This document shows positions 10,984 through 41,820 of a DNA stretch of 64,000 nucleotides, one piece after another. A model generated the notes under the pieces. That model was not told the DNA's origin and searched no databases. It saw only the letters and a list, made by a program, of their open reading frames with translations. Position numbers and translations under genes: made by a program. The DNA comes from Ramlibacter terrae (GTDB lineage: Bacteria > Pseudomonadota > Gammaproteobacteria > Burkholderiales > Burkholderiaceae_C), in assembly GCA_013127575.1 (NCBI GenBank), contig CP053418.1, positions 1,550,001 through 1,614,000 on the forward strand, written 5' to 3'. Position 1 is the stretch's first letter. Each line of letters starts with the position of its first letter.

Positions 10984-13900
10984 ATGCGGCGCGGCCTGCA
11001 CTGGACCAGCCGGGCGCTGCTGGCCCTCGGGCTGCTGCTCGTGATCGCGGCCGCCGGGCTCTGGTGGTGGGCGGGCCGGGAGGGTTCGCTCGAATGGGTC
11101 CTGCAGCGCGCCGCCAGGGGCAGCCCCTGCAGACCGATGGCGTGCAGGGCTCGGTGCGCAATGGCTGGCGCATCCAGCGCATGGTGTGGGAGAAGGACGG
11201 CCTGCGCATCGAGGCGTTGGACATCACGCTGAAGTGGCAGCCGCTGGCGCTGCTGAGCCGCACGCTTCGGGTCGACCGGTCGGCGTGGGCACCGTGCGCG
11301 TCACCGACACGCGCGAGAAGGACGACGAGCCGCTGAAGCCGCCCGAAAGCCTGCGGCTGCCGTTCCGCATCACCGTCGACGAACTCGTGGCGGGGACCAT
11401 CGTCTACGACGGCGTCACCGACGTCGAGGCCGGCACGCTGGCGGGCAGCTATGCGTTCGACGGCTTGCGGCACCGCGTGAAGATCGATTCGCTCAAGCTG
11501 GCCGGCGGCGAGTACCGCGGCGAAGGCATGGTGCTCGCGCTGCAGCCGATGACGCTGCAGGTGAAGCTGGCCGGCCGCGTGCAGGCGCCGGTGCCCGGTG
11601 TGCAGGAGCCGGTGGCGCTGGTGTTCGAGGCGGGCGCCGACGGCACGGTCCGTGACTTCCGGCCCGGGCGCAATTGCAGGTGCCGCAGGCCGGCGTCGCC
11701 GGCACCGCGCTGCCGCAGGCGACCGCGACGGCGCGCATCACGCCGTTCGAGACGATGCCGGTGCCGCAAGGCGCGGCCGACTTCCGGCAGCTCGACGTGG
11801 GCCAGTTCTGGCCCGCGGCACCGCAGACTGCGCTGTCGGGTCGCGTGGCGGTGGTGCCGCGGGGCACGGCCACCGGCAGCTCACCGCCGACGTGCGCAAT
11901 GCCATCCCCGGCCCGTGGGACGCGAAGCGGCTGCCGCTGGCCAGCGCCGGGGCCGAAGGCGAGTGGCGCAGCGGCACGGCGCTGGTGCGCTCGCTGCAGG
12001 CGCAACTGGGCGGCGGCAGCATCGAAGGCAACGGCGCCCGGGAGGGCGGCGGCTGGAACTTCAGCGGCAAGGTCGATGACGTCGACCCGTCGCAGCTGCA
12101 CGGCGCGATGGCGCCGCTGCCGTTGAGCGGACCGATCAAGGCGCGCGGGGAAGCGGGCGCCGTGGACTTCGACGTTGCGCTGGAAGCGGGCGCCGCGCGC
12201 CGCGCGCCGCCCGCGCGCAAGCCCGACCCCGGCGGGCAGGCCGCGTGGCTGGTCGCGCTGGAACTGCGCGAGGCGACGGCCAAGGGCCGCTACGCCGGCG
12301 ATTCGCTGACGCTGGAGCCCGTGCGCATCCGCACCAGCGATGCGCTGCTGGAAGGCCAGCTCGCGCTGCAGGTCAAGGCGATGGCGGGCACGGGCAAGCT
12401 GCAACTCCGCGCGCCCGGCATCCGGGCCAGGCCAACGGCAGCATTTCGGAAACGCGCGGCCAGGGCACGCTGGAAGTGGCGGCGCGCGACCTCGCGCAGG
12501 CGCAGCAATGGCTGCGGCGCTTTCCCGGTGTCGGCGCGATGCTGGCCGGCCTGCAACTGCGCGGCAACGCCGATGCGCGGCTGGCGTGGCAAGGCGGCTG
12601 GAGCGATCCCGCCGTGCAGGGCCGCATCGGAGCGGCCGGCGTGCAGTGGACGGCCGCCGCCAGCGGCGCCAACCAGCCGCCGCCGTGGGTGTTGCGGCAG
12701 GCCGAGGTCAAGCTGAACGGGCGCCTGCGCGATGCCGCGCTCGACGTCCAGGCGCAGGTGGAGCGCGGCCAGCGCAGGATGGACTGGCCGTCGCCGGTCG
12801 CGTGGGCGGCACGCTGGGGGCGAATTCGACGTGGCGCGGCCGCGTCGCCAGCCTCGACCTGCGGGCGCAGGATCCGGCGCTGGCGCCCGGCCCGTGGCAG
12901 CTGCAATTGCGCAACCCGGTGGACTGGCGGTTCGCCGCCGCCAACTTCGAGGTCGCGGCCGGGGAAGCGGTGTTGCGGGCGCCCGCGCTGCGCGGCGGCA
13001 CGCCCGCGACCGATGCCGTGCTCACACGGGCGCCGGTGCGACGGCAAGGCGGCGTGCTCACCACGTCCGGCAAGCTGGGCGGCCTGCCGATGGCGTGGAT
13101 GGAGCTGTTCGGCGGCCCGCAGGCGGCGGGTTCGGCGCTTTCGGGCGACATGGTCTTCGACGCGCAGTGGAACGCGCAGCTCGGCTCCACGGTGCGGGTC
13201 GACGCTTCGCTCGTGCGCGTGCGCGGCGACGTCAACGTGCTGGCGGAAAGCGCCGACGGCGCCGCGGCGCGCGTCACGGCGGGCGTGCGCGAAGCCCGCG
13301 TCGCGATCAGCAGCCGGGGCGAGCAGCTCACGCTGTCCTTGCTGTGGGACAGCGAGCGCGCCGGCCGCGCGGAGGGCGGTGCGCACGCGGCTGGCCCGCA
13401 CGCCGGACGGCGGCTGGACTGGCCCGAGGCGGCGCCGCTCGAAGGGCGCATCCAGGCGCAGCTGCCGCGCATCGGCGTGTGGTCGCTGCTGGCGCCGCCG
13501 GGCTGGCGCCTGCGCGGCTCGCTGGCCGCGGACATCGCCGTGGGCGGCACCCGCGAACAGCCGCTGTTCACGGGCCCGCTGCGCGCCGACGACCTCGCGC
13601 TGCGCTCGGTGGTCGACGGCATCGAACTGAAGAACGGCCGCCTGCGCGCGGAGCTCGCCGGCCAGCGCTGGTGGTCAGCGAGTTCGTGCTGGGCGGCAGC
13701 GAAGAGGGCGGCGGCAACGGCGGCACGATCACCGCGAAGGGCGAAGGCCAGATCACGCCGCAAGGATTGCAGCTGGTGGCCGATGCGCAGTTGAACCAGC
13801 TGCGCGCGAGCATCCGCAGCGACCGGCAACTGACCCTCTCGGGGCCGGTGCAGGCGCGCATGTCCGCCGAGGGCACCACCGTCAACGGCAAGCTGGTGGT

Positions 13901-20024: not shown

Positions 20025-20037
20025 ATGGTCATACCAT
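20025..20037. promoter_or_regulatory. GntR/FadR-type operator between divergent sugar-acid operons
   Basis: ATGGT CAT ACCAT is a perfect inverted repeat and matches the TNGTNNNACNA consensus of FadR-subfamily GntR regulators. It lies between dgoK (leftward) and the dehydrogenase (rightward), 25 bases before the latter. The GntR protein encoded at 21423-22165 is the likely ligand-responsive repressor. Confidence 0.6.
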
Positions 20038-21422: not shown

Positions 21423-22165
21423 ATGATGCGCAACGTCCACGGCAACACCGTCGACCACTGGGCGCGGCGATCGTCGCCGGCCGTTATGCGCCCGGCGCCG
21501 CGATCCCGCCCGAGCCGCTGCTGTGCGAGGAGCTCGGGGTCAGCCGCACCGTGGTGCGCGAAGCCGTCAAGTCGTTGATCGCCAAGGGCCTGGTCAGCAG
21601 CGGGCCGAAAGTGGGCACGAAGGTGCTGCCCGCGGACGAGTGGAACTGGTTCGACCGCGACGTGATCGTGTGGCAGTCGCGCGCCGGCCTCACGCGCGAG
21701 TTCCTGCGCGACCTGCAGGAACTGCGGCGCGTGGTCGAGCCGGCGGCCGTGCGCCTCGCCGCCGAACGCGCGACGCCGCAGGACATCGTCGGCATCGAAG
21801 CCGCCTTCGCAGGCATGAAGCGCGCGGTGGAAGAGGGCGGCGACTACGTCACCCACGACCTGCGCTTCCACCGGGGCCTGCTGCGCGCTTCGCACAACCG
21901 CATGGTCGCGCAGATGAGCAAGGCGCTGGCCGCGCTGCTGCGCACCAGCTTCGAGATTTCCACCAGCCGCAAGGACGGCCCCAAGCTGTCGCTGCCGCTG
22001 CACCGCGCCGTGATCGACGCCGTGATCGCGCGTGACGCCACCGCGGCCGAACAGGCGATCCTGGTGCTGATCGACGGCGCCCGCGACGACATCGAAACGG
22101 TGCTGTCCTCGCGCCGCCGCCTGCCCAAGCTCGACCTCCCCGCGCCCCTCCTGCGCATCGCTTGA
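21423..22165 (+). CDS. GntR-family regulator, FadR/FCD subfamily
   Basis: About 247 residues. The N-terminal winged helix (IPPEPLLCEELGVSRTVVREAVKSLIAKGL) is followed by an all-helical FCD ligand domain with the metal-binding residues in TREFLRDLQELRRVVEPAA and LRFHRGLLRASHN. Similar regulators (DgoR, ExuR, GntR types) respond to sugar acids. One frame break near 21461 (CCTGG). It sits inside the operon it presumably controls; the palindrome at 20025-20037 fits its expected site. Start taken at the first of two adjacent ATG codons. Confidence 0.88.
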
Positions 22166-28180: not shown

Positions 28181-28931
28181 CTACACCAGCTCGCGCGAGG
28201 ACCCCAGGATGCGCGAGATGTCGCCCCGCGTTTCCTCCAGCTGCACCAGCGTGGCTGGCGCGCCGCCAGCGCATCGTGGTGGAGCAGCGCGGTGAGGATC
28301 GCCTTGTGCCGCGGCAACGAGAGTTCGTGCGTGTCGGGCAGCTTGCTGCTCAGCTTGATGGACTCGCGCAGCGCCAGCGAGAGCATGTTGCCGATATAGG
28401 CCAGCAGGTCGTTGCCGGTCGCTTCGGCGATGCGGCGGTGGAAGGCAGGTCGGGCTCCAGCAGTTCGTCGGGCGTGGTCGCCGCTTCCATGCCGGCGTAG
28501 GCCTCGGCGATGCCTTTCAGCTGCTCGTCGGTGGCGACGCGCGCCGTCAGGGCGGCGGCGGCGGGCTCGAAGATGCGCCGCACGGTCATCAGGCTTTCGA
28601 CGAACTCCGGCGCCGGCTTGGACTGGATCAGCCAGTAAAGCACGTCGGGGTCGAGCAGGTGCCAGTCGCTGCGCGGGCGCACGATGACGCCGGCGCGCTG
28701 GCGCGACACCACCAGGCCCTTGGCCACGAGCACCCGCACCGCCTCGCGCAGCACGGAACGGCTGACCTGGAAGGTCGCCAGCAGCACGGTCTCGGCCGGC
28801 AGCTTGCTGCCGGGCGCAAACTCCCCGCCCACGATGCGCATGCCGAGGTCGCGCACGATCTGCGCGTGCATGCTCTTGCGCTCCGGCGGGCGGCGGTAGC
28901 TGGAATCGCGGTGGGACGACGGAAACGGCAT
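28181..28931 (-). CDS. GntR-family regulator (FadR/FCD) of the pentose island
   Basis: About 250 residues: MHAQIVRDLGMRIVGGEFAP, LPAETVLLATFQVSRSVLREAV (winged helix) and VVSRQRAGVIVRP, followed by an FCD domain (LEPDLAFHRRIAEATGN, with metal-binding aspartate and histidines). Last gene of the leftward operon dehydratase-chvE-gguA-gguB-fadR, 9 bases after gguB. Its probable sites are the two TAGTCnGACTA palindromes at 34539 and 34604, which match the FadR-type TNGTNNNACNA consensus. Two frame breaks, near 28445 and 28257 (both CCAGG on the plus strand losing one base). Confidence 0.87.
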
Positions 28932-28940
28932 GGCGGCAGT

Positions 28941-30103
28941 CTATCGCCTGCTCTTGTTGGCGACGTCGACGAACACGGCGGCCAGCAGCACCAGGCCCTT
29001 GATCACCTGCTGGTAGTCGATGCCGATGCCCGGGATCGACATGCCGTTGTTCATCACCCCCATGACGAACGCGCCGACCACCGCGCCGAACACCTTGCCC
29101 ACGCCGCCCGACGCGGAGGCCCCGCCGATGAAGCAGGCGGCGATCACGTCCAGCTCGAAGCCGAGGCCGGCCTTGGGCGTCGCGGTGTTCAGGCGCGCCG
29201 CGAACACCAGGCCGGCCAGCGCCGCCAGCACGCCCATGTTGACGAAGGCCGGGAAGGCCAGCCGGGCGGTCTTGATCCCCGAGAGCCGCGCCGCCTTCTC
29301 GTTGCCGCCCAGTGCATAGATGCGGCGACCGATGGTGGTGCGCAGCGTGACGAAGTCGTACACCACGATCAGCACCGCCATCACCACCAGCACGTTGGGC
29401 AGGCCGCGGTAGGCCGAGAGCAGCGCGCTCAGCCCGACGATCAGCGCGACGAACACCGGGTTCTTCGCCGGGAAGAAGGGCAGCGGCTCCATTGCCATGC
29501 CGTGCCGCGCGGCCAGCTTGCGCTCGCGCAGCTTGAAGAACACCAGCGCGATGGCGGCCAGCACGCCGAGCAGCAGCGAGGTGAGGCGCATCGAGTCGCC
29601 ACCCAGTGGGTCCGGGATGAAGCCGGTGGACAGCAGCTGGAACTCCGGCGGGAAAGGGCCCACCGACTGTCCTTGCAGCGCGAGCAGCGCCAGGCCCTTG
29701 AACACCAGCATGCCGGCCAAGGTGACGATGAAGGACGGGATGCGCACGTAGGCGACGAACCAGCCCCGGGCGCCGCCGATGACCGCGCCGGCCACCAGGC
29801 ACACGAGCGTCGCCGGCAGGAAGTGCCAGTCCATCCGCACCATCAGCACCGCCGCCAGCGCGCCGATGAAGCCGCAGACCGAGCCCACCGACAGGTCGAT
29901 GTGGCCGGCGACGATGACCAGCAGCATGCCCAGCGCCATGATGACGATGTAGCTGTTCTGCAGCACCGGGTTGGTCAGGTTCAGCGGCTGCATCAGCGTG
30001 CCGCCCGTGAGGTACTGGAACAGCGCCATGATGGCCACCAGCGTCAGCAGCATCGCGTAGTCGCGCAGGTGGGCGCGCAGGAAAGCCGGGGGGCAGTGCT
30101 CAT
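28941..30103 (-). CDS. gguB: sugar ABC transporter permease GguB (XylH-like)
   Basis: About 388 residues with around ten membrane segments; the EAA-like and substrate-channel regions GHIDLSVGSVCGFIGALAAV, IPSFIVTLAGMLVFKG, YALGGNEKAARLSGI and ELDVIAACFIGGASASGGVG are typical of CUT2 permeases. The long middle loop (EPLPFFPAKNPV) matches the XylH/GguB subgroup. The start overlaps the gguA stop as ATGA; the first codons MSTAPQAFLRAHL become readable after restoring CCAGG near 30087. Confidence 0.9.
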
Positions 30104-31655
30104 TGCAGGGTTCCAGCGCCGACGATGGCGCGCATGATCTTTTCCTGGCTGGCCTCGTTCGCGCCGAATTCGGCAACGAAGCGGCCTTCGTTCATCACGT
30201 AGATGCGGTCGCACATGCCGAGCAGCTCCGGCATCTCCGAAGAGATCATGACGATGCAGCGGCCCTCGGCGGCCATCTGCGCCATCAGGCTGTAGATCTC
30301 GAACTTGGCGCCGACGTCGATGCCGCGCGTCGGCTCGTCGAGGATCAGCACGCGCGGCTGCGTGAACAGCCACTTGCCCAGCACCACCTTCTGCTGGTTG
30401 CCGCCCGACAGCTCGCCGGCCGGCTGGTGCACGCCGGCGCAGCGGATGCGCAGCTGTTGCCGGTAGCCCTCGGCCACCGCGAATTCGCGGCCCTCGTCGA
30501 CGACGCCATGGTTCGCCACACCCGGCAGGTTCGCCAGCGTGGTGTTGCGGGCGATGTCGTCGTCGAGCAGCAGGCCGTAGCCCTTGCGGTCCTCGGTGAC
30601 GTAGGCGATCCCGTGCGCCACCGCGCGGCTGACGTCCGAAACGTCAACTTCCACCCCTTCCACCAGCACCTTGCCGCTGATGCGCTGCCCGTACGAACGG
30701 CCGAAGACGCTCATCGCCAGCTCGGTGCGGCCGGCGCCCATCAGGCCGGCGATGCCGACGATCTCGCCGCGGCGCGCGTGCAGGTTCACGCCCTTGACCA
30801 CCTGCCGGTCGGCATGCAGCGGATGGTGCACCGTCCAGTCGCGCACCTCGAACACCGTCTCGCCCGGCGCCGGCTCGCGCCGCGGGTAGCGGTCGGCCAT
30901 CTCGCGGCCGACCATGTGGCGGATGACCACGTCCTGGTTGGCCGGCTGCCCGCGGCAGTCGAGCGTCTGCACCGTGCTGCCATCGCGCAGCACCGTGATG
31001 GTGTCGGCCACCTTCTCGATCTCGTTGAGCTTGTGCGAGATCAGGATGCTGGTCACGCCGTGCTCCCGCAGCCCGAGCAGCAGTTGCAGCAGCGCCTCGC
31101 TGTCGGTCTCGTTCAGGCTCGCGGTGGGTTCGTCCGGGATCAGCAGCCTGACCTGCCGCGACAGGGCCTTGGCGATCTCCACCAGCTGCTGCTTGCCGAC
31201 GCCCAGATCGTCCACCAGCGTGGCCGGCGATTCGTCCAGGCCCACGGTGGCCAGCAGCTCGCGCGTGCGCACGTGGGCCGCATGGCGGTCGACCACGCCG
31301 AGCCGCGCCGGCTCCTTGCCCAGGAAGATGTTCTCGGCGATCGACAGCAGCGGCACCAGCGCGAGTTCTGGTGGATGATGCTGATGCCCAGCGCCTCGCT
31401 GCCCGCGGTGTCGCGGAACTGGCGCGGCTGCCCTTCGAACAGGATCTCGCCGTCGAAGGTGCCGTGCGGGTAGACGCCGCTCAGCACCTTCATCAGGGTC
31501 GACTTGCCCGCGCCGTTCTCGCCCACCACGGCATGGATCTCGCCGGCGCGCACGCCCGGGTTCACGTCCTTGAGCGCCACCACGCCGGGGAAGGCCTTGG
31601 TGATGTTGCGCATCTCCGGGATCATTTCCCCGGTCGGTACGCTCCGGGGGCTCAC
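30100..31655 (-). CDS. gguA: sugar ABC transporter ATP-binding protein GguA (XylG-like)
   Basis: CUT2-type ATPase with two nucleotide-binding domains, about 518 residues. First domain: [22 protein letters not shown]; signature [13 protein letters not shown]. The Walker B reads LLIPDEPTA, where the proline looks like a CCTGG-to-CCCGG error. Second domain: [28 protein letters not shown] and [14 protein letters not shown] frame break lies at 31370 (CCAGG read as CCAG). The GTG start overlaps the chvE stop as GTGA; ATG 31625 (MIPEMRNIT) is an alternative. Energises uptake of the sugar bound by ChvE. Confidence 0.92.
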
Positions 31656-32722
31656 TTGAGCTGGGCCTCTTTGTAGTAGCCGCTGCCCACCAGCACCTGC
31701 TTCCAGTTGCCGGCGTCCACGCTGACCGGCTTGAGCAGGTAGGAGGGAACCACCTTGACGCCGTTGTTGTAGGTCTTGGTGTCGTTGATCTCGGGCGCCT
31801 TGCCGGAAATCACCGCATCGACCATGTTGGCCGCCACCTTGGCGAGGTCGCGCGTGTCCTTGAAGACGGTGGACGACTGCTCGCCGCGCACGATCGACTT
31901 GATCGAAGGCACTTCGGCGTCCTGCCCGCTCACCACCGGGCAGGGCTGGCCGCCGCCGCAGTAGCCCACGCCCTTGAGCGACGACAGGATGCCGATCGAC
32001 AGGCCGTCGTAGGGCGACAGCACGGCGTGCACCTTGTCCTTGCCGTAGAAGGCCGACAGCAGGTTGTCCATGCGCGCCTGCGCCACCGCGCCGTCCCAGC
32101 GCAGCGTGCCCACCTTGTCCATGCCCATCTGCTTGCTGCGCACCACCAGCTTGCCGCTGTCGATGTAGGGCTTGAGCACCGACATCGCGCCGTCGTAGAA
32201 GAAGAAGGCGTTGTTGTCGTCGGGCGAGCCGCCGAACAGCTCGATGTTGAACGGGCCCTTGCCCTGCTTCAGTCCCAGCTTGTCGACGATCGAGGTCGCC
32301 TGCAGCACGCCGACACGGAAGTTGTCGAAGGTGGCGTAGTAGTCCACGTTCTTCGAGCCGCGGATCAGGCGGTCGTAGGCGATGACCTTGATGCCCTTGT
32401 CGCCGGCCTTCTGCAGCGCGTTCGACAGGGTGGTGCCGTCGATGGCGGCGATCACCAGCACCTTGACGCCCTTGGTGATCATGTTCTCCACACGGGCCAG
32501 CTGGTTGGGGATGTCGTCGTCGGCGTACTGCAGGTCGGTCTGGTAGCCGCGCTCCTTGAGCACCTTGACCATGTTGTTGCCGTCGTCGATCCAGCGCGCG
32601 GAGGACTTGGTCGGCATCGAGATGCCGATGGTGCCCTTGCCCTGCGCCAGCGCTGCCGGCGCGAGTCCGGTCAGTGCGGCGCCCAGCGCCAGGCTGCCGA
32701 TGATGAAGTGCAGGCGTTTCAT
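31652..32722 (-). CDS. chvE: ChvE-type multiple-sugar periplasmic binding protein
   Basis: Intact 356-residue protein with a signal peptide ending near APAALAQ. It resembles Agrobacterium ChvE and E. coli Xyl[58 protein letters not shown] (sugar-contacting arginine, asparagine and aspartate) and [20 protein letters not shown]. Expected ligands are arabinose, galactose, xylose or glucose. Strong AGGAGAG ribosome site. First transport gene after the dehydratase (37-base gap), in one operon. Confidence 0.92.
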
Positions 32723-32759
32723 GGTGTCTCTCCTTGGGGTGGTGTCGCTCGGTGGGAAC

Positions 32760-34500
<1,741 letters not shown>

Positions 34501-34538
34501 CGGCGGGGTCTCGCTTGTTCTGGCGGGGAAGCGAAATA

Positions 34539-34549
34539 TAGTCAGACTA
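34539..34549. promoter_or_regulatory. FadR-type operator 1 (TAGTCAGACTA)
   Basis: Perfect palindrome TAGTC A GACTA matching TNGTNNNACNA, 38 bases before the dehydratase start in the divergent regulatory region. Expected to bind the FadR-type repressor at 28181-28931 and control the leftward operon. Confidence 0.6.
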
Positions 34550-34603
34550 AAAATGCTGGAAAGCACAGGGAAAACCCCTACATCAGCGGACTATTCGCAA
34601 AAT

Positions 34604-34614
34604 TAGTCCGACTA
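34604..34614. promoter_or_regulatory. FadR-type operator 2 (TAGTCCGACTA)
   Basis: Second copy, 65 bases (about six helical turns) from the first and 33 bases before the SDR start. The surrounding AT-rich text (AAAATTAGTCCGACTAGATAAT) includes a likely -10 box (TAGATAAT) for the rightward operon. Two sites on the same helix face suggest joint control of both operons, possibly with looping. Confidence 0.6.
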
Positions 34615-34647
34615 GATAATCGCCGCTTCTCCCGCCGACCCCACCCC

Positions 34648-35412
34648 ATGCCCGACTTCGCCAGCTACCCGAGCCTCGTGGACCGCACCGTGCTGATCAC
34701 CGGTGGCGCCTCCGGCATCGGCGAATGCATGGTCGAACGGTTCGCGGAGCAGGGGGCCAAGGTGGGCTTCATCGACGTGGCGCGCGAGGCAGGCGAGGCG
34801 CTGGCGCGGCGGCTTGCCGGCAGTGCCCACGCCCCCTTGTTCGTCGCCGCGGACCTCACGGACATCGCCGCGCTCGATGCAGCGATCGGCGTGGTGCGCG
34901 AACGCTTCGGGCCCATCCGCGTGCTGTTGAACAACGCGGCGAACGACCAGCGCCATCGCATCGAGGACACGACGCCGGCATCGTGGGATGCGGGCATGGC
35001 CGTGAACCTGCGGCACCAGTTCTTCGCGGCGAAGAACGTCGCGGCCGACATGAAGCGCAGCGGCGGTGGCTCGATCGTGAACTTCGGCTCCGTCAGCTGG
35101 ATGCTCAAGCAGGGCGGCATGCCGGTCTACACCACGGCCAAGGCGGCGGTGCAGGGCCTCACGCGCAGCCTGGCGCGCGACTTCGGGCCGTACGACATCC
35201 GCGTCAATACGCTGGTGCCGGGCTGGGTGATGACCGAGCGGCAGGTGAAGCTGTGGCTCACCGACGAAGGCCGCGCCGACATCGCCCGCGGGCAGTGCCT
35301 GCGCGGCGAGCTGCGCCCGGACCACATTGCCCGCATGGCGCTGTTCCTCGCCGCCGACGACAGCGCGATGTGCACCGCGCAGGACTTCGTGGTGGACGGG
35401 GGCTGGGTGTGA
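34648..35412 (+). CDS. SDR-family sugar dehydrogenase (probable aldose 1-dehydrogenase)
   Basis: Intact 254-residue short-chain dehydrogenase: VLITGGASGIGECMVERF (cofactor loop), LLNNAANDQRH, NFGSVSW (serine), VYTTAKAAVQGL (Tyr and Lys) and FVVDGGWV at the end. FIDVAREAG at the end of strand 2 has an aspartate, which suggests NAD preference. First gene of the rightward operon; its place before a lactonase gene points to oxidation of L-arabinose or D-galactose to the lactone. The GTG start of the next gene overlaps the stop. Confidence 0.88.
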   Translation: MPDFASYPSLVDRTVLITGGASGIGECMVERFAEQGAKVGFIDVAREAGEALARRLAGSAHAPLFVAADLTDIAALDAAIGVVRERFGPIRVLLNNAANDQRHRIEDTTPASWDAGMAVNLRHQFFAAKNVAADMKRSGGGSIVNFGSVSWMLKQGGMPVYTTAKAAVQGLTRSLARDFGPYDIRVNTLVPGWVMTERQVKLWLTDEGRADIARGQCLRGELRPDHIARMALFLAADDSAMCTAQDFVVDGGWV

Positions 35413-36288
35413 GCGAGGCAAGGCTCGCCGTCGCCGCGCGCAACCGCCGGGTGAGTGCCCGCTGTGGTGCGAGCGGACCGGCGCGCTGTACTGGACCGAC
35501 ATCGAGGGCCGCACCCTCAGCCGCTTGCAGGCCGGCGGGACCGTCCGCGCGTGGACGCTCCCCGACCGCATCGGCAGCTTCGCCTTCTGCGAGGACGGCA
35601 CGCGCTTGCTGCTCGGGCTCGCTCACGGCATCGCACTGTTCGACCGGAGACCGAGGCGCTCTCACCAGTCATCCCGGTGGAGCCGGACCAACCCACGACC
35701 CGCATCAACGACGGCCGTTGCGACCGCGGGGGCCGCTTCGTGTTCGGCATGTTCAATCCCGCCGAAGCGGCGATCGGCGGCATGTACCGCGTGCATGCCG
35801 ACCTGCGGGTCGAGCGCTTGCCGTTGCCGCCGGTGGCCGTGGCCAACAGCATCGCCTTCAGCCCGGACGGCGCCACCCTGTACTTCGCCGACTCGCCGGC
35901 GCGCACCATCTGGTCGGTCGACTACGGCGCCGACGGCAGCCTGGGCACGCCGCGCGTGTTCGTGCGCCTGCCTGCCGACGAAGGCTTTCCCGACGGTTCC
36001 TGCATCGACGCCGACGGCGGCCTGTGGAACGCGCAATGGGAGGGCGGCTGCGTGGTGCGCTACGACGCCGCCGGCGCGCGGACCGATCGCCTGCCGTTGC
36101 CGGTGACGCGGCCGACCTGCCCCGCCTTCGGTGGTCCCGCGCTATCGACCCTCTACGTCACTTCGGCGCGCATCGGGCTGGACGAGCAAGCCTTGCGCGA
36201 CCAGCCCGACGCCGGCGGCCTGTTCACTCTGCCGGCGCGCCGGCAGGGCCTGCCCGAATCGCGCTTCCGCACGGAGACACCTGCATGA
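35409..36288 (+). CDS. SMP-30/gluconolactonase-family lactonase
   Basis: Six-bladed propeller lactonase of about 293 residues. Metal-site residues: GECPLW (Glu), RINDGRCDRGGRFVFG (Asn), VANSIAFSPDG (Asn) and FPDGSCIDADGGLWNAQWEGG (Asp). It hydrolyses aldonolactone to the aldonic acid. GTG start overlapping the SDR stop; the stop overlaps the next gene as ATGA. Two frame breaks at 35451 (CCAGG read as CCGG) and 35649 (CCTGG read as CCGG). Confidence 0.9.
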
Positions 36289-37204
36289 CCGCTCCCCGCT
36301 ACCGGGGCGTCTTTCCCGTCGTCCCCACCACCTTCACCGAAGACGGCGCGCTGGACCTGGACAGCCAGAAGCGCTGCGTCGACTTCATGATCGATGCCGG
36401 CTCCGACGGCCTGTGCATCCTGGCCAATTTCTCCGAGCAGTTCGTGCTGGCCGACGAGGAGCGCGAGGTCCTCACCCGCGCCATCCTGCGGCACGTGGAC
36501 GGCCGGGTGCCGGTGATCGTGACCACGACCCACTTCGGCACCCGCGTCTGCGCCGAGCGCAGCCGCCGCGCGCAGGAAGAGGGCGCGGCCATGGTGATGG
36601 TGATGCCGCCTTACCACGGCGCCACGCTGCGGGTGCCCGAGCCGCAACTGTTCGAGTTCTTCGCTTCGCTTTCGGATGCGATCGATATCCCGATCATGGT
36701 GCAGGACGCGCCGGTCAGCGGCACCGTGCTGCCGGCCGCGCTGCTCGCGCGCATGGCGCGCGAGATCGAACAGGTCTGCTATTTCAAGATCGAGACCGCC
36801 GGCGCGGCCAGCAAGCTGCGCGAGCTGCTGCGCGCGGGCGGCGACGCCGTCGAAGGTCCGTGGGACGGCGAGGAGGCGATCACGCTGCTGCCCGACACGG
36901 AGGCCGGCGCCACCGGTTCCATGACCGGCGGCGGCTACCCGGACGGCATCCGGCAGGTGATGGACGCCTGGCGCGCGGGGAACCGTGAGGCAGCCTTCGA
37001 TGCGTATGCGCGCTGGCTGCCTCTGATCAACTACGAAAACCGGCAGGGCGGCATCCTCACGGCCAAGGCGCTGATGAAGGAAGGCGGCGTCATTGCCTGC
37101 GAGGCGCCGCGCCATCCTTTCCCGGCGATGCATCCGGCCGTGCGCGCCGGGCTGATCGCGACCGCAAAGCGGCTGGACCCCCGGTCCTGCGCTGGGGCAG
37201 GTGA
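36285..37204 (+). CDS. DapA-family 2-keto-3-deoxy-L-arabonate dehydratase-like protein
   Basis: About 307 residues of the DHDPS/NAL barrel family. YRGVFPVVPTTFTEDGALDL, ILANFSEQFVLADEER, VQDAPVSGT and the Schiff-base lysine in VCYFKIETAG fit the L-KDA dehydratases of the non-phosphorylating arabinose pathway, as does GPWDGEEAITLLPD. It would convert L-2-keto-3-deoxyarabonate to 2-oxoglutarate semialdehyde; an aldolase role on a keto-deoxy sugar acid is the alternative. The last residues (RLDPLVLRWGR) need repair of CCTGG near 37182. No semialdehyde dehydrogenase gene is in the window. Confidence 0.85.
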
Positions 37205-37261
37205 CTGGAACGCAGCCTCCGCGCCCATTTCCCACCCGCAACCACGAAGGAGACGACAACC

Positions 37262-38223
37262 ATGATGAATCGCCGCAACGCCCTGCAGGGCACCGCCGCC
37301 CCGGCCTTGGCCGCCGGGCTTCCGCTGTCCGCGCTGGCGCAGAAGAAGATCGTGCTGGGCTTCAGCCAGATCGGCGCCGAAAGCGAATGGCGCACCGCCA
37401 ACACCGAGTCGATCAAGCAGGCCGCCAAGGACGCCGGCATCGAGCTGAAGTTCGCCGACGCCCAGCAGAAGCAGGAGAACCAGATCAAGGCGATCCGCTC
37501 CTTCATCGCGCAGAAGGTCGACGTGATCGCCTTCTCGCCGGTCGTGGAAAGCGGCTTCGAGACCGTGCTGCGCGAAGCCAAGGCCGCGAAGATCCCGGTG
37601 ATCCTGACCGATCGCGCGGTCAACGTGAAGGACGACTCGCTGTGGGTCAGCTTCATGGGCTCCGACTTCCGGAAGAAGGCCGCAAGGCGGGCCGCTGGCT
37701 GGTGGAGAACAAGAAGGCCGCGGCGGGACCGGTCAACATCGTGGAGCTGCAGGGCACGGTCGGCTCGGCGCCGGCGATCGACCGCAAGAAGGGCTTCGAG
37801 GAAGTCATCAAGGGCCAGCCCAAGTTCAAGATCGTGCGCTCGCAGACCGGCGACTTCACGCGCGCCAAGGGCAAGGAAGTGATGCAGGCCTTCCTGAAGG
37901 CCGACGCCAAGAACATCCACGTGCTCTACGCGCACAACGACGACATGGCCATCGGCGCGATCCAGGCGATCGAGGAAGCGGGCCTGAAGCCGGCCAAGGA
38001 CATCACCATCATCTCGATCGACGCGGTCAAGGGCGCCTTCGAGGCGATGATGGCCGGCAAGCTGAACGTGTCGGTGGAATGCAGCCCGCTGCTCGGCCCG
38101 CAGCTGATGACGGCGGTGAAGGACGTCGTCGCGGGCAAGAAGCTGCCCAAGCGCATCGTGACGGAAGAGGGCGTGTTCCCGATGGAAACCGCCGCTGCCG
38201 AATTCCCGAAGCGCAAGTACTGA
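37262..38223 (+). CDS. ytfQ: galactofuranose/arabinose-type ABC binding protein YtfQ
   Basis: CUT2 periplasmic binding protein of about 320 residues. MNRRNALQGTAAPALAAGLP is a signal peptide with an arginine pair (Tat export possible); the mature part has GFSQIGAESEWRTANTESI, QENQIKAIRSFIAQKVD, LTDRAVNVKD and HNDDMAIGAIQAIEEAG, close to E. coli YtfQ. YtfQ binds furanose forms of galactose and arabinose. One frame break at 37669 (CCAGG read as CCGG). AAGGAGACGAC precedes the two adjacent ATG codons. Confidence 0.9.
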
Positions 38224-38234
38224 GGACGCACCGG

Positions 38235-39753
38235 ATGACGCAGGCGGGCGCGCAAGGGCCGGTGCCGGTGCTGGAGCTCGCCGGCATCGGCAAGCAGTTC
38301 CTCGGCGTGCGCGCGCTCGCCGATGTCGGCCTGCGCCTCTTCCCCGGCGAAGTCCATGCCCTGATGGGGCAGAACGGCGCCGGCAAGTCGACGTTGATCA
38401 AGGTGCTCACCGGCGTCTACCCGGCCGATGCCGGCACCGTCACGCTGGAGGGCCGCGTGGTGCGGCCCCGCTCGCCGCTGGAGGCGCAGCGGCTGGGCAT
38501 CAGCACGGTCTACCGGGAGGTGAACCTGTGCTCCAACCTGTCGGTGGCGGAGAACATCTTCGCCGGCCGCTACCCGCGCCGTTTCGGCGCGATCGATTGG
38601 CAGGCGATGAACGTCCAGGCGCGCGCGCTGCTGGCCCGCCTGAACCTCGACATCGACGTCACGCAACTGCTCGCCAGCTACCCGGTGGCGGTGCAGCAGA
38701 TGGTGGCGATCGCGCGGGCGCTGGGCGTGTCGGCGCGCGTGCTGGTGCTGGACGAGCCCACCTCGAGCCTCGACGCCGACGAGGTGCAGCGCCTGTTCGG
38801 CGTGCTGCGGCAGCTGCGCGCCGAAGGCCTCGCGATCCTGTTCGTCACCCATTTCCTCGACCGGTGTATGCCGTCGCCGACCGCATCACCGTGCTGCGCA
38901 ACGGCGCGCTGGTCGGTGAATACGCGGTCGCCGCCTTGCCGGCGCCGGCACTGATCGCCGCGATGGTCGGCCGTGAACTGGCGGCCCGGCGGCAGCCGGA
39001 GCCCGCGCCGGGCGTGCACGCCGAGGCGGAGGCGCCGCTGCTGGAGCTGCGCGGGCTGGGCCGGCGCAGCGTGCTGCAAGCGACCGACCTGTCGGTGCGG
39101 GCCGGCGAGATCGTCGGCCTCGCCGGCCTGTTGGGTTCGGGCCGCACCGAGCTGGCGCAGCTGGTGTTCGGCCTGCACCGCGCCGACACCGGCGAACTGC
39201 GGATGCAGGGCGAGCCGCGCAATGTCGACACGCCGGCCGCGGCGGTGGAACTCGGCATGGCGCTGATGCCCGAGGACCGCAAGACCGATGGCATCGTCGG
39301 CGAGCTTTCGGTGCGCGACAACATCGTGCTGGCGCTGCAGGGCCGGCGCGGCATGTGGAACCAGTTGCCGGAGCAGGAGCAGCTGCGGCTGGCCGAGGGC
39401 TTCGTGCGCGCGCTCGGCATCAAGACGGCCGACCTCGACACGCCGATCGGGCTGCTCTCGGGCGGCAACCAGCAGAAGGCCTTGCTCGCGCGCTGGCTGG
39501 CGACCGAGCCGCGCCTGCTGATCTGGACGAGCCGACCCGCGGCATCGACGTGGCCGCCAAGCAGGAGATCATGGACGAGATCGGCCGGCTGGCGGCGCAA
39601 GGAATGGCCGTGCTGTTCATCTCGTCGGAAATCGAGGAGGTGGTGCGCGTGTCCCATCGCATCGCGGTGCTGCGCGATCGCTGCAAGGTCGGCGAGCTGC
39701 CGGCCGGCAGCGGCGAGCAGGACGTCTACCACCTGATCGCGCAGGAGCATTGA
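38235..39753 (+). CDS. ytfR: sugar ABC transporter ATP-binding protein YtfR
   Basis: Double ATPase of about 507 residues. First domain: [22 protein letters not shown] and [14 protein letters not shown]; second: [31 protein letters not shown] and [15 protein letters not shown]. Frame breaks lie at 38862 (CCAGG) and 39525 (CCTGG). TVYREVNLC carries R where relatives have Q, again explained by CCAGG read as CCGGG. Starts 11 bases after ytfQ; the stop overlaps the permease start as TGATG. Confidence 0.92.
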
Positions 39754-40801
39754 TGGCATTTGCCTGGCGTCATCGCCTGTTCTGGCCGCTCGTCACGCTG
39801 CTGCTGTTGCTTGCGGTCAATGCGGCGTTCAACCCCAGCTTCCTGCACGTCGAGTGGCGCGACGGCCACCTGTACGGCAGCCTGGTCGACATCGTCAAGA
39901 GCGCGGCGCCGCTGGCCCTCGTGGCGCTGGGCATGACGCTCGTGATCGCGACGCGCGGCATCGACATTTCGGTGGGCGCGACCGTCGCGATCGCTGCGGC
40001 GGTCGCGGCGGCCGGATGATCGGCGGCTCGCTGGTCGTGCAGGACGGCGTCGCCACCCACGTGAGCCGCTTCCCGATGTGGGCCGCGATCGCGGGCGCGC
40101 TCGCCGTCGCCTTGCTGTGCGGCGCGTGGAACGGCGCGCTGGTCGCCGGCGTGGGCATGCAGCCGATCGTCGCCACGCTGATCCTGATGGTGGCCGGCCG
40201 CGGCATCGCGCAGCTCGTGACCAACGGCCAGATCATCACGGTCTACTACGGCCCTTACTTCACCATCGGCAACGGCTACCTGGCCGGCCTGCCGGTGCCG
40301 TTCTGGATCGCAGCCGCGGTGCTCGTGGCGCTCGTGCTGCTGTGCCGGCGCACGGCGCTGGGCATGTTCATCCAGGCCGTCGGCATCAACCCGTCGGCTG
40401 CGCGCCTTGCGGGGTTGCCGGCGCGGCGCATCGTCTTCTGGGCCTATGCGTTCTGCGGCCTGTGCGCGGGCGTGGCGGGCCTGATCGTGAGTTCCACCGT
40501 CAAGAGCGCCGACGGCAACAACGCCGGCATGCTGATGGAGCTCGACGCGATCCTCGCAGTGACGCTCGGCGGCACGGCGCTGACCGGAGGCCGCTTCAGC
40601 CTGGTGGGCAGCGCGATCGGCGCGCTGATCATCCAGACGCTGACCTATGCGATCTACTCGATGGGCGTACCGCCGGAAGTCAACCCGGTGGTGAAGGCGG
40701 CGGTCGTGTTCGCGGTGATGCTGCTGCAGTCGGCCGAGTTCCGCCAAACCGTCGCCGGCTGGCTGCGCCGGCCCATGCCGCGCGCGCAGGAGGTGCGATG
40801 A
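39753..40801 (+). CDS. ytfT: sugar ABC transporter permease YtfT
   Basis: CUT2 permease of about 350 residues with around nine membrane helices. LHVEWRDGHLYGSLVDIVK, TLVIATRGIDISVGATVAIA, NGQIITVYYGPYFTIGNGYL and ELDAILAVTLGGTALTGGRF are typical of YtfT. One frame break near 40013 (CCTGG read as CCGG). ATG 39753 is preferred over the in-frame TTG one codon earlier. The stop overlaps yjfF by 4 bases. Confidence 0.92.
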
Positions 40802-41820
40802 GCGCGGACCTGCGCCTGCTGGCCGACGCGCCGCGGCCCACCGCACCGGCCGTGCGACAGCGCCGCTTCGACCCCAAGTACGCGCCGGTGCTGGTCACCA
40901 TCGCCTTGTTCGCCGCCTTGTGCGCGCTGGGCTCGGTGGCCTACACCGGCTTCTTCTCGGCGCAGGTGTTCCTGAACCTGCTGATCGACAATGCCTTCCT
41001 GTGCATCGCAGCGGTGGGGCTGACCTTCGTCATCCTTTCCGGCGGCATCGACCTGTCGGTCGGCGCCGTGATTGCGCTGACCACGATGGTGTCGGCATCC
41101 CCGGTGGAGCGGCATGGCTGGAGTCCCTTCGCCGTGATCCCGCTGGTGCTGGTGCTGGGAACCGCCTTCGGCACGGTGATGGGCGTGCTGATCGAACGCT
41201 TCCGGCTGCAGCCCTTCATCGTCACGCTCGCCGGCATGTTCCTGGCGCGCGGGCTGTGCTACCTGATCAGCATCGACTCCATCAGCATCGGCGACCCGTT
41301 CTACGCTTCGGTGTCGCAGGTGCGCATCGCGCTGTGGGAGGACGCGTCGCTGTCCATCAGCGCGGTGATCGCACTGCTGGTGGTCCTCGCCGGCGCCGTG
41401 CTGGCGCACTGGACGCAGTTCGGCCGCACGGTCTACGCGATCGGGGGCAACGAGCAATCGGCGGTGCTGATGGGGCTGCCGGTCCGCTCGACGCTGGTCG
41501 GCGTCTACGCGCTCAGCGGCTTCTGTTCGGCGCTGGCCGGCGTGGTGTTCACCTTCTACATGCTGTCCGGCTACGGGCTGCATGCGGTGGGACTGGAACT
41601 CGATGCGATCGCGGCGGTGGTGATCGGCGGCACGCTGCTGTCCGGCGGCGTCGGCTACGTGTTCGGCACCTTGTTCGGCGTGCTGATGCTGGGGATCATC
41701 CAGACGCTCATCATGTTCGACGGCAGCCTGAGCTCGTGGTGGACGCGCATCGCCATCGGCGGCCTGCTGTTCGCCTTCTGCCTGCTGCAGCGGCTGTTCG
41801 AGGCGCGCCCGGGGCGCTGA
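40798..41820 (+). CDS. yjfF: sugar ABC transporter permease YjfF
   Basis: Second permease of the Ytf system, 340 residues in one frame: FVILSGGIDLSVGAVIALTT, LQPFIVTLAGMFLARGLCYL, YAIGGNEQSAVLMGLPVRST and LELDAIAAVVIGGTLLSGG. SASPVERH has proline where YjfF proteins have leucine, which fits CCTGG read as CCCGG. Together with YtfT it makes the heterodimeric channel. Last gene of the rightward sugar operon. Confidence 0.92.
   Translation: MSADLRLLADAPRPTAPAVRQRRFDPKYAPVLVTIALFAALCALGSVAYTGFFSAQVFLNLLIDNAFLCIAAVGLTFVILSGGIDLSVGAVIALTTMVSASPVERHGWSPFAVIPLVLVLGTAFGTVMGVLIERFRLQPFIVTLAGMFLARGLCYLISIDSISIGDPFYASVSQVRIALWEDASLSISAVIALLVVLAGAVLAHWTQFGRTVYAIGGNEQSAVLMGLPVRSTLVGVYALSGFCSALAGVVFTFYMLSGYGLHAVGLELDAIAAVVIGGTLLSGGVGYVFGTLFGVLMLGIIQTLIMFDGSLSSWWTRIAIGGLLFAFCLLQRLFEARPGR

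Follow-up and report, generated by a model that had tools for sequence, protein, structure and literature searches.

Paired sites for FadR-type regulators, held at constant spacing between divergent operons, have already been described (Suvorova et al. 2015, PMC4494728). As in the divergons treated in the sections of that paper covered here, the locus presented below has its regulator gene within one of the two operons and two palindromes of the form NyGTM-N-KACNy at a nearly constant distance. The same sections report weak half-sites at 7-12 nt from the centre of the operator and no unrelated third element lying between two operators, and the main text contains no occurrence of Burkholderia or Comamonad. 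A second relative is found in Halomonas, where the GntR-family regulator AraR2, with a LysR partner called AraR, has been predicted to govern L-arabinonate use (Leyn et al. 2017, PMC5507952). The resemblance lies in the predicted GntR-family control of an oxidative L-arabinose pathway and in a second regulator at the locus, although the gene order in Halomonas differs and the AraR2 regulon has a TRAP transporter. The third relative is DgoR, for which two inverted repeats over a promoter and four residues conserved in our regulator (R102, D146, H150 and H195) are documented in the parts of two papers drawn on here (PMC7674646, PMC12288454). However, DgoR controls a D-galactonate regulon, its operator IR1 contains TTGTAGTACAA, and its W181 is not conserved.

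The locus lies in a stretch of 64,000 nucleotides from Ramlibacter terrae, hereafter called the window. The switch belongs to the described kind, in that paired FadR-type sites separate divergent operons, and a third conserved element between the sites is its new part. Our main reading, to which we assign a probability of roughly 85%, is that the two palindromes form a paired operator for a DgoR-like local repressor of L-arabinose oxidation, that a sugar acid of the pathway would release this repressor, and that an activator would work through the third element.

The minus-strand operon begins with an IlvD/Edd-family dehydratase, probably an L-arabinonate dehydratase (32763..34500, in three pieces through assembly frameshifts), followed by the sugar-binding protein of a first ABC transporter (Peripla_BP_4, 31652..32722), its ATP-binding subunit (30100..31655, two overlapping frames) and its permease subunit (28941..30176, start not fixed). 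It ends, as an earlier note on this DNA had claimed, with a FadR-type (GntR + FCD) regulator (28181..28931, frameshifted in the assembly). On the plus strand lie a short-chain dehydrogenase (SDR), probably a sugar 1-dehydrogenase (34648..35412), an SMP-30/gluconolactonase-family lactonase (35455..36288, start not fixed), a DHDPS-family L-2-keto-3-deoxyarabonate dehydratase assigned by structure matches (36285..37200, end approximate) and a second ABC transporter resembling YtfQ/YtfR/YtfT/YjfF (37262..41820, with frameshifts). The two operons together span about 13.5 kb, in agreement with the 13 kb of genes given in that note. Within 28181-41820 the genes for the dehydratase, YtfQ, YtfR and the regulator are broken by frameshifts, which, together with a genome completeness score of 63.7%, points to an indel-rich assembly rather than to real pseudogenes.

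By homology only, the first four enzymes of oxidative L-arabinose breakdown (dehydrogenase, lactonase, L-arabinonate dehydratase and L-KDA dehydratase) are all present in the two operons. The window DHDPS-family protein matches the L-2-keto-3-deoxyarabonate dehydratases 7C0C and 3FKK at 494 bits, with the next match at 95. A Caballeronia homologue that is 78-90% identical to the three pieces of the window dehydratase matches 8EJ0, 5J83/5J84, 5J85 and the L-arabinonate dehydratase 9EVV at 827-836 bits, above the 494 bits reached by the galactonate dehydratase 7M3K. KGSA dehydrogenase is encoded inside the operon in several relatives; here its homologues lie elsewhere in the genome, the best of them in two pieces. 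As judged from these predicted products, the two operons encode the oxidative (non-phosphorylating) L-arabinose pathway to 2-oxoglutarate, and the earlier designation as pentose operons can be sharpened to L-arabinose through the structure matches of the dehydratase and the DHDPS-family protein. These are not D-galactonate (dgo) genes, and the gene context is therefore not that of DgoR.

The operons are separated by a spacer of 147 bases, from the ATG at 34500 (minus strand) to the ATG at 34648 (plus strand), and this spacer contains both palindromes. Operator 1, TAGTCAGACTA (34539..34549), is on the dehydratase side, with 38 bases between it and the minus-strand ATG, and operator 2, TAGTCCGACTA (34604..34614), is on the SDR side, with 33 bases between it and the plus-strand ATG. 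Their starts are 65 bases apart with 54 bases in between, and the sequences, positions and distance previously reported for them are exact. Both are unique in the genome and conserved in relatives, and both fit NyGTM-N0-1-KACNy, the FadR-subfamily palindrome given in the relevant part of PMC4494728.

Palindromes as short as these could in principle arise by chance, and the loose consensus taken alone gives no significance: TNGTNNNACNA matches the window six times where shuffles average 2.85 matches and 9 of 100 of them have six or more, and we dropped it as evidence. The specific form TAGTCNGACTA, allowing at most one mismatch, behaves differently: it matches the window twice, each time exactly, where shuffles average 0.13 matches and 1 of 100 of them reached two. 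A genome search for further sites, which the earlier note had proposed, found no TAGTNNNACTA elsewhere in 5.28 Mb, and the sites of TAGTCNGACTA are likewise confined to these two places. The same two patterns read backward have 6 (TAGTCNGACTA) and 116 (TAGTNNNACTA) genome sites, although these controls have another stop-codon content than the motif and make an unfair expectation. The genome count of two is low, not high; the remarkable part is that both sites fall in one spacer, given that the chance of two random sites in 5.28 Mb lying no more than 65 bases apart is about 2.5e-5 (calculated by hand). The shuffles of the specific form, the genome uniqueness, and the genus co-occurrence and conservation of the pair described next all contradict chance, which we consider almost inconceivable as an explanation.

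Orthologues of the regulator, with at least 84% identity over the 162 residues compared, occur in 6 of 59 genus genomes. A degenerate operator pair is present in five of the 59, all of them among these six (p ~1e-6, by hand and ignoring kinship), and in the sixth the regulator lies on a contig of 8.8 kb that ends inside the operon. The exact pair pattern matched the window alone among 200 family genomes because relatives vary in the outer and inner bases; a degenerate form of it succeeded in the genus. For a wider view, a genome collection was scanned with the regulator alignment, in which the best 80 of 529 relatives were kept and seven further sequences were added to give 87. A pair, as defined for the scan, was found in 60 of these, and 59 loci were retained (L100 was left out before this count, its pair overlapping coding sequence, and L038 and L116 were reoriented by hand). 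All counts below come from related loci and are not independent: 29 of the 59 belong to Paraburkholderia/Caballeronia/Burkholderia, and L108 and L109 are two contigs of one strain. The scan found no such pair in the other 27 sequences, some of them short contigs, among which L033 carries a pair in a different gene context and L046 and L047 have weaker pairs by eye.

Operator status in Paraburkholderia/Caballeronia rests on position and a partial match, as one half of each operator is decayed there. The decayed halves, for example TAGTCATGCTA and TAGACAAACTA in L090 and L115, are nevertheless common to many species, and the sites may have turned asymmetric. As a separate observation by eye, L033, from Caballeronia sp. 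SBC1, carries at 12763-12900 a pair 64 bp apart just 3' of the regulator gene, followed by a terminator-like hairpin and then by a ribosome-site-like sequence with an ATG.

Spacing between the operators is 62-66 bp in 55 of the 59 loci. One of the 55, L059, is labelled Methylotenera, and the labels of the other 54 are what we take to be Burkholderiales genera or higher groups within that order. The exceptions are 73 bp in an Acinetobacter locus (L036) and on both contigs of the Pseudomonas kuykendallii strain (L108 and L109), and 75 bp in a weak Sphaerotilus pair (L063). None of three scrambled palindromes gave a peak at 64-66, while two of them had peaks elsewhere, of 10-11 pairs at distances of 42 and 84. 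The spacing is kept even as the divergent partners change among SDR|dehydratase, SDR|DHDPS, dehydratase|YtfQ and dehydratase|SBP. Across 47 loci with intergenic lengths of 123-371, as taken from homology hits, the distance between sites is nearly independent of intergenic length, with a slope of 0.011, although the two are correlated (r 0.71).

In the part of PMC4494728 that treats this relation, pairs regarded as acting jointly have a slope of about 0.05 and independent sites one of about 0.5, and the slope here resembles that of the former, cooperative class. It could nonetheless be argued that each operator serves its own promoter without cooperation and that the constant spacing merely reflects the packing of back-to-back promoters. 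Each operator does sit at its own -10-like sequence, and independent sites form the larger class of FadR divergons in the same part of that study (71 of 100). A slope of 0.011 is far from the 0.5 of that class, though r is 0.71, and the spacing is preserved despite a changing gene on the far side. We regard non-cooperating operators as possible but somewhat doubtful, and prefer to view the pair as one paired operator.

The sites also vary along with the regulator. Where a serine follows the arginine of the recognition helix, the operators are GTCnGAC in 11 of 12 cases, and where a proline follows it they are GTCnGAC in 3 of 40, with each distinct pair counted once, kinship ignored, and 12 of the 59 loci omitted where the recognition-helix regular expression failed. 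This rule is broken by L035, L063 and a Roseateles-type locus, each with proline and one GTCnGAC site, and by L050, with serine and one other site. In E. coli FadR the arginine is followed by Thr-46, which we matched to the Ser/Pro position by eye and which the contact table of PMC4494728 lists as touching C and G. That operator sequence varies with a recognition-helix residue favours the operon's own regulator as the reader of these sites.

A competing assignment would give the sites to another FadR-type regulator, such as the second FCD-domain protein of the window (21443-22165, plus strand), and leave the operon's own FadR gene to regulate something else. This protein is 43% identical over query residues 24-152. 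Its gene is separated by about 6 kb from that of the operon's own regulator and by 12 kb from the palindromes, and shared motifs can occur among FadR paralogues. However, homologues at 38-46% identity, which are not necessarily orthologues of the second regulator, are found in many genus genomes without the pair, and the operator variation tracks the operon's own regulator. Moreover, the gene run of the second regulator is preceded by a palindrome whose half-site differs, TGGTCATACCA (20026-20036), and this would be the likelier target of that protein. We therefore judge this assignment to be very improbable. The cognate repressor of both operons is very probably the product of the FadR/GntR gene that ends the minus operon, as argued by genome uniqueness, genus co-occurrence, locus conservation, helix covariation and the overlap with -10-like sequences. 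The earlier proposal of a single FadR-type repressor reading the paired sites is supported by these five lines of sequence evidence, which are not fully independent of each other.

The regulator itself has the domain arrangement of the FadR subfamily. Its R. cellulosilyticus orthologue scores above cut-off for an N-terminal GntR winged helix-turn-helix (PF00392) and a C-terminal FCD domain (PF07729), whereas the window copy is above cut-off for GntR and has, because of the frameshift, a partial FCD at 23.2 bits against a cut-off of 24.3. The orthologue matched 21 NCBIfam families, none at cut-off and with no DgoR model among them. The closest solved structure is 7C7E, which PMC7674646 identifies as DgoR of E. 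coli, with D-galactonate as its ligand. DgoR R102, D146, H150, H195 and T191 align with R118, D161, H165, H209 and S205 of our regulator, and W181 has no equivalent. L-Arabinonate is the five-carbon analogue of D-galactonate, with the same configuration at C2 to C4. Given this kinship and chemistry, L-arabinonate would be the likeliest inducer by analogy, ahead of 2-keto-3-deoxyarabonate.

Promoter calls at the two operators are weak, each -10 being a consensus match only. On the dehydratase side a predicted -10, TATATT (34535..34540, minus strand), overlaps operator 1 and is accompanied by no more than TTTCCA, a weak -35-like sequence, and on the SDR side a predicted -10, GATAAT (34615..34620, plus strand), directly follows operator 2. 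A -35 reaching five of six consensus positions was found in 0 of 25 loci on the dehydratase side and in 3 of 25 on the other side. These three include R. cellulosilyticus and one other genus genome, in which the SDR-side operator fills the spacer of TTGACA-N16-CATAAT. We considered the missing -35 boxes as proof of activator dependence and dropped the argument, in that these boxes are poor on both sides and are suggestive at most. Since the operators overlap or adjoin -10-like sequences, repression by promoter covering is likely. Each repressor dimer would cover or abut the -10 region of its own promoter, which in the absence of sugar would keep both operons shut, along with the regulator gene itself. 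A separation of 62-66 bp, or about six helical turns, would bring the two dimers to approximately one face of the helix, and the near-constant spacing suggests cooperative binding, perhaps across a short loop. A sugar acid of the pathway, most probably L-arabinonate, would then free the dimers.

Between the operators lies the third conserved element, which is missing from the earlier note and is new here. In the window it reads GGGTTTTCCC (34568..34577, minus strand), 18 bases from operator 1, and we propose it as the site of a second factor. The form GGGTTTNCCC is present with at most one mismatch in 49 of the 59 loci (shuffle mean 0.49, maximum 6 in 200 rounds) and with at most two in 54 (shuffle mean 5.4, maximum 13 in 200 rounds). 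With the 29 Paraburkholderia/Caballeronia/Burkholderia loci set aside, 21 of 30 still have it at one mismatch or fewer (counted by hand). At the two-mismatch threshold it was not found in the Acinetobacter and Pseudomonas pairs, L045 or L086. The element is the nearer to the dehydratase-side operator (the DHDPS side in Roseateles), at 16-17 bases in 52 of the 54 loci, the others being the window and L035, where the distance is 28 and the orientation is not known. The gap to the far operator measures 25-28 bases in 52 of the 54 (15 in L035 and 38 in L063). An ungapped profile anchored on the near operator, built from 24 loci hand-picked to thin relatives and omitting L036, L108/L109, L086 and L063, in which the element is poor or lacking, has an island of conservation from -27 to -16 that reaches 1.4 bits; the positions from -14 to -4 carry almost no information, and those from -48 to -28 do not exceed 0.6 bits. 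In Caballeronia SBC1, GCGTTTACCC is also found 6 bases ahead of an operator that precedes the regulator gene.

Relative to the predicted dehydratase-side start, the element is centred between -40.5 and -47.5. Its centre falls at -42.5 or -43.5 in 16 of the 25 loci considered, and the window has it at -44.5. Placement near -43 is typical of activators that touch RNA polymerase. The element is probably the binding site of an activator for the dehydratase-side promoter, where a second factor bound about 43 bp upstream of the predicted start would activate transcription. It might instead be a DNA-bending or promoter-architecture sequence rather than a protein site, as its G-tract/T-tract/C-tract form could bend DNA and as GGGTTTNCCC also occurs beside -10-like sequences elsewhere in the genome. 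We hold this to be unlikely given the nearly fixed distance to the dehydratase-side operator and the tolerance of TA-step variants (GGGTTAACCC), both of them more like protein recognition. Returning to the activator site, we tentatively suggest that the Burkholderiales arabinose switch is a fixed cassette, in which two FadR-type repressor dimers six turns apart enclose an activator site with the consensus CGGGTTTTCCCG at about -43 of the dehydratase promoter. If true, the repressor pair would lock the activator site until the sugar acid appears.

We also considered GGGTTTNCCC as a genome-wide motif that might reveal its factor. It has 31 sites in the whole genome against 5 for a reversed control; at least 7 of the 30 other sites resemble, by eye, the start-site sequences of unrelated genes, and this use of the motif was dropped. 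At seven sites of the genome itself (L134, L140, L145, L146, L147, L156 and L159), GGGTTTNCCC follows a -10-like sequence by a few bases (by eye). Some of these sites are shortly before an ATG, one of them with an L34-like start (MKRTYQPSK), and they possibly represent a start-site or 5' hairpin element that is apparently separate from the arabinose element. A strict pattern of element plus operator, GTTTWCCC-N4-21-TAGTNNNACTA, had no match in 9 genomes, partly because variants of these very loci escape it. The LysR gene of the window was rejected as the source of the factor, as a 157-residue stretch of its product matched nothing in the other loci at E<=1e-12.

Among the matches listed in open-access literature searches, titles and the starts of abstracts held nothing on this regulator in Burkholderiales or on the third element, and matches listed for the operator and element strings included no apparent regulatory paper for this system. 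One searched string occurs in a paper on bacterial REP sequences (PMC2817692). The locus offers Burkholderiales a compact and testable L-arabinose/L-arabinonate switch that could serve as a part for sensors. Beyond this, it contributes a naturally occurring set of variants in the operator and the recognition helix, and it draws attention to a conserved regulatory element.

Elsewhere in the window, inspection by eye places the palindrome at 20026-20036 just before a 2-hydroxyacid dehydrogenase-like gene, opposite which is a gene resembling a sugar-acid kinase/aldolase. Together with the FCD regulator at 21443-22165, this palindrome probably marks a second, distinct sugar-acid regulon.
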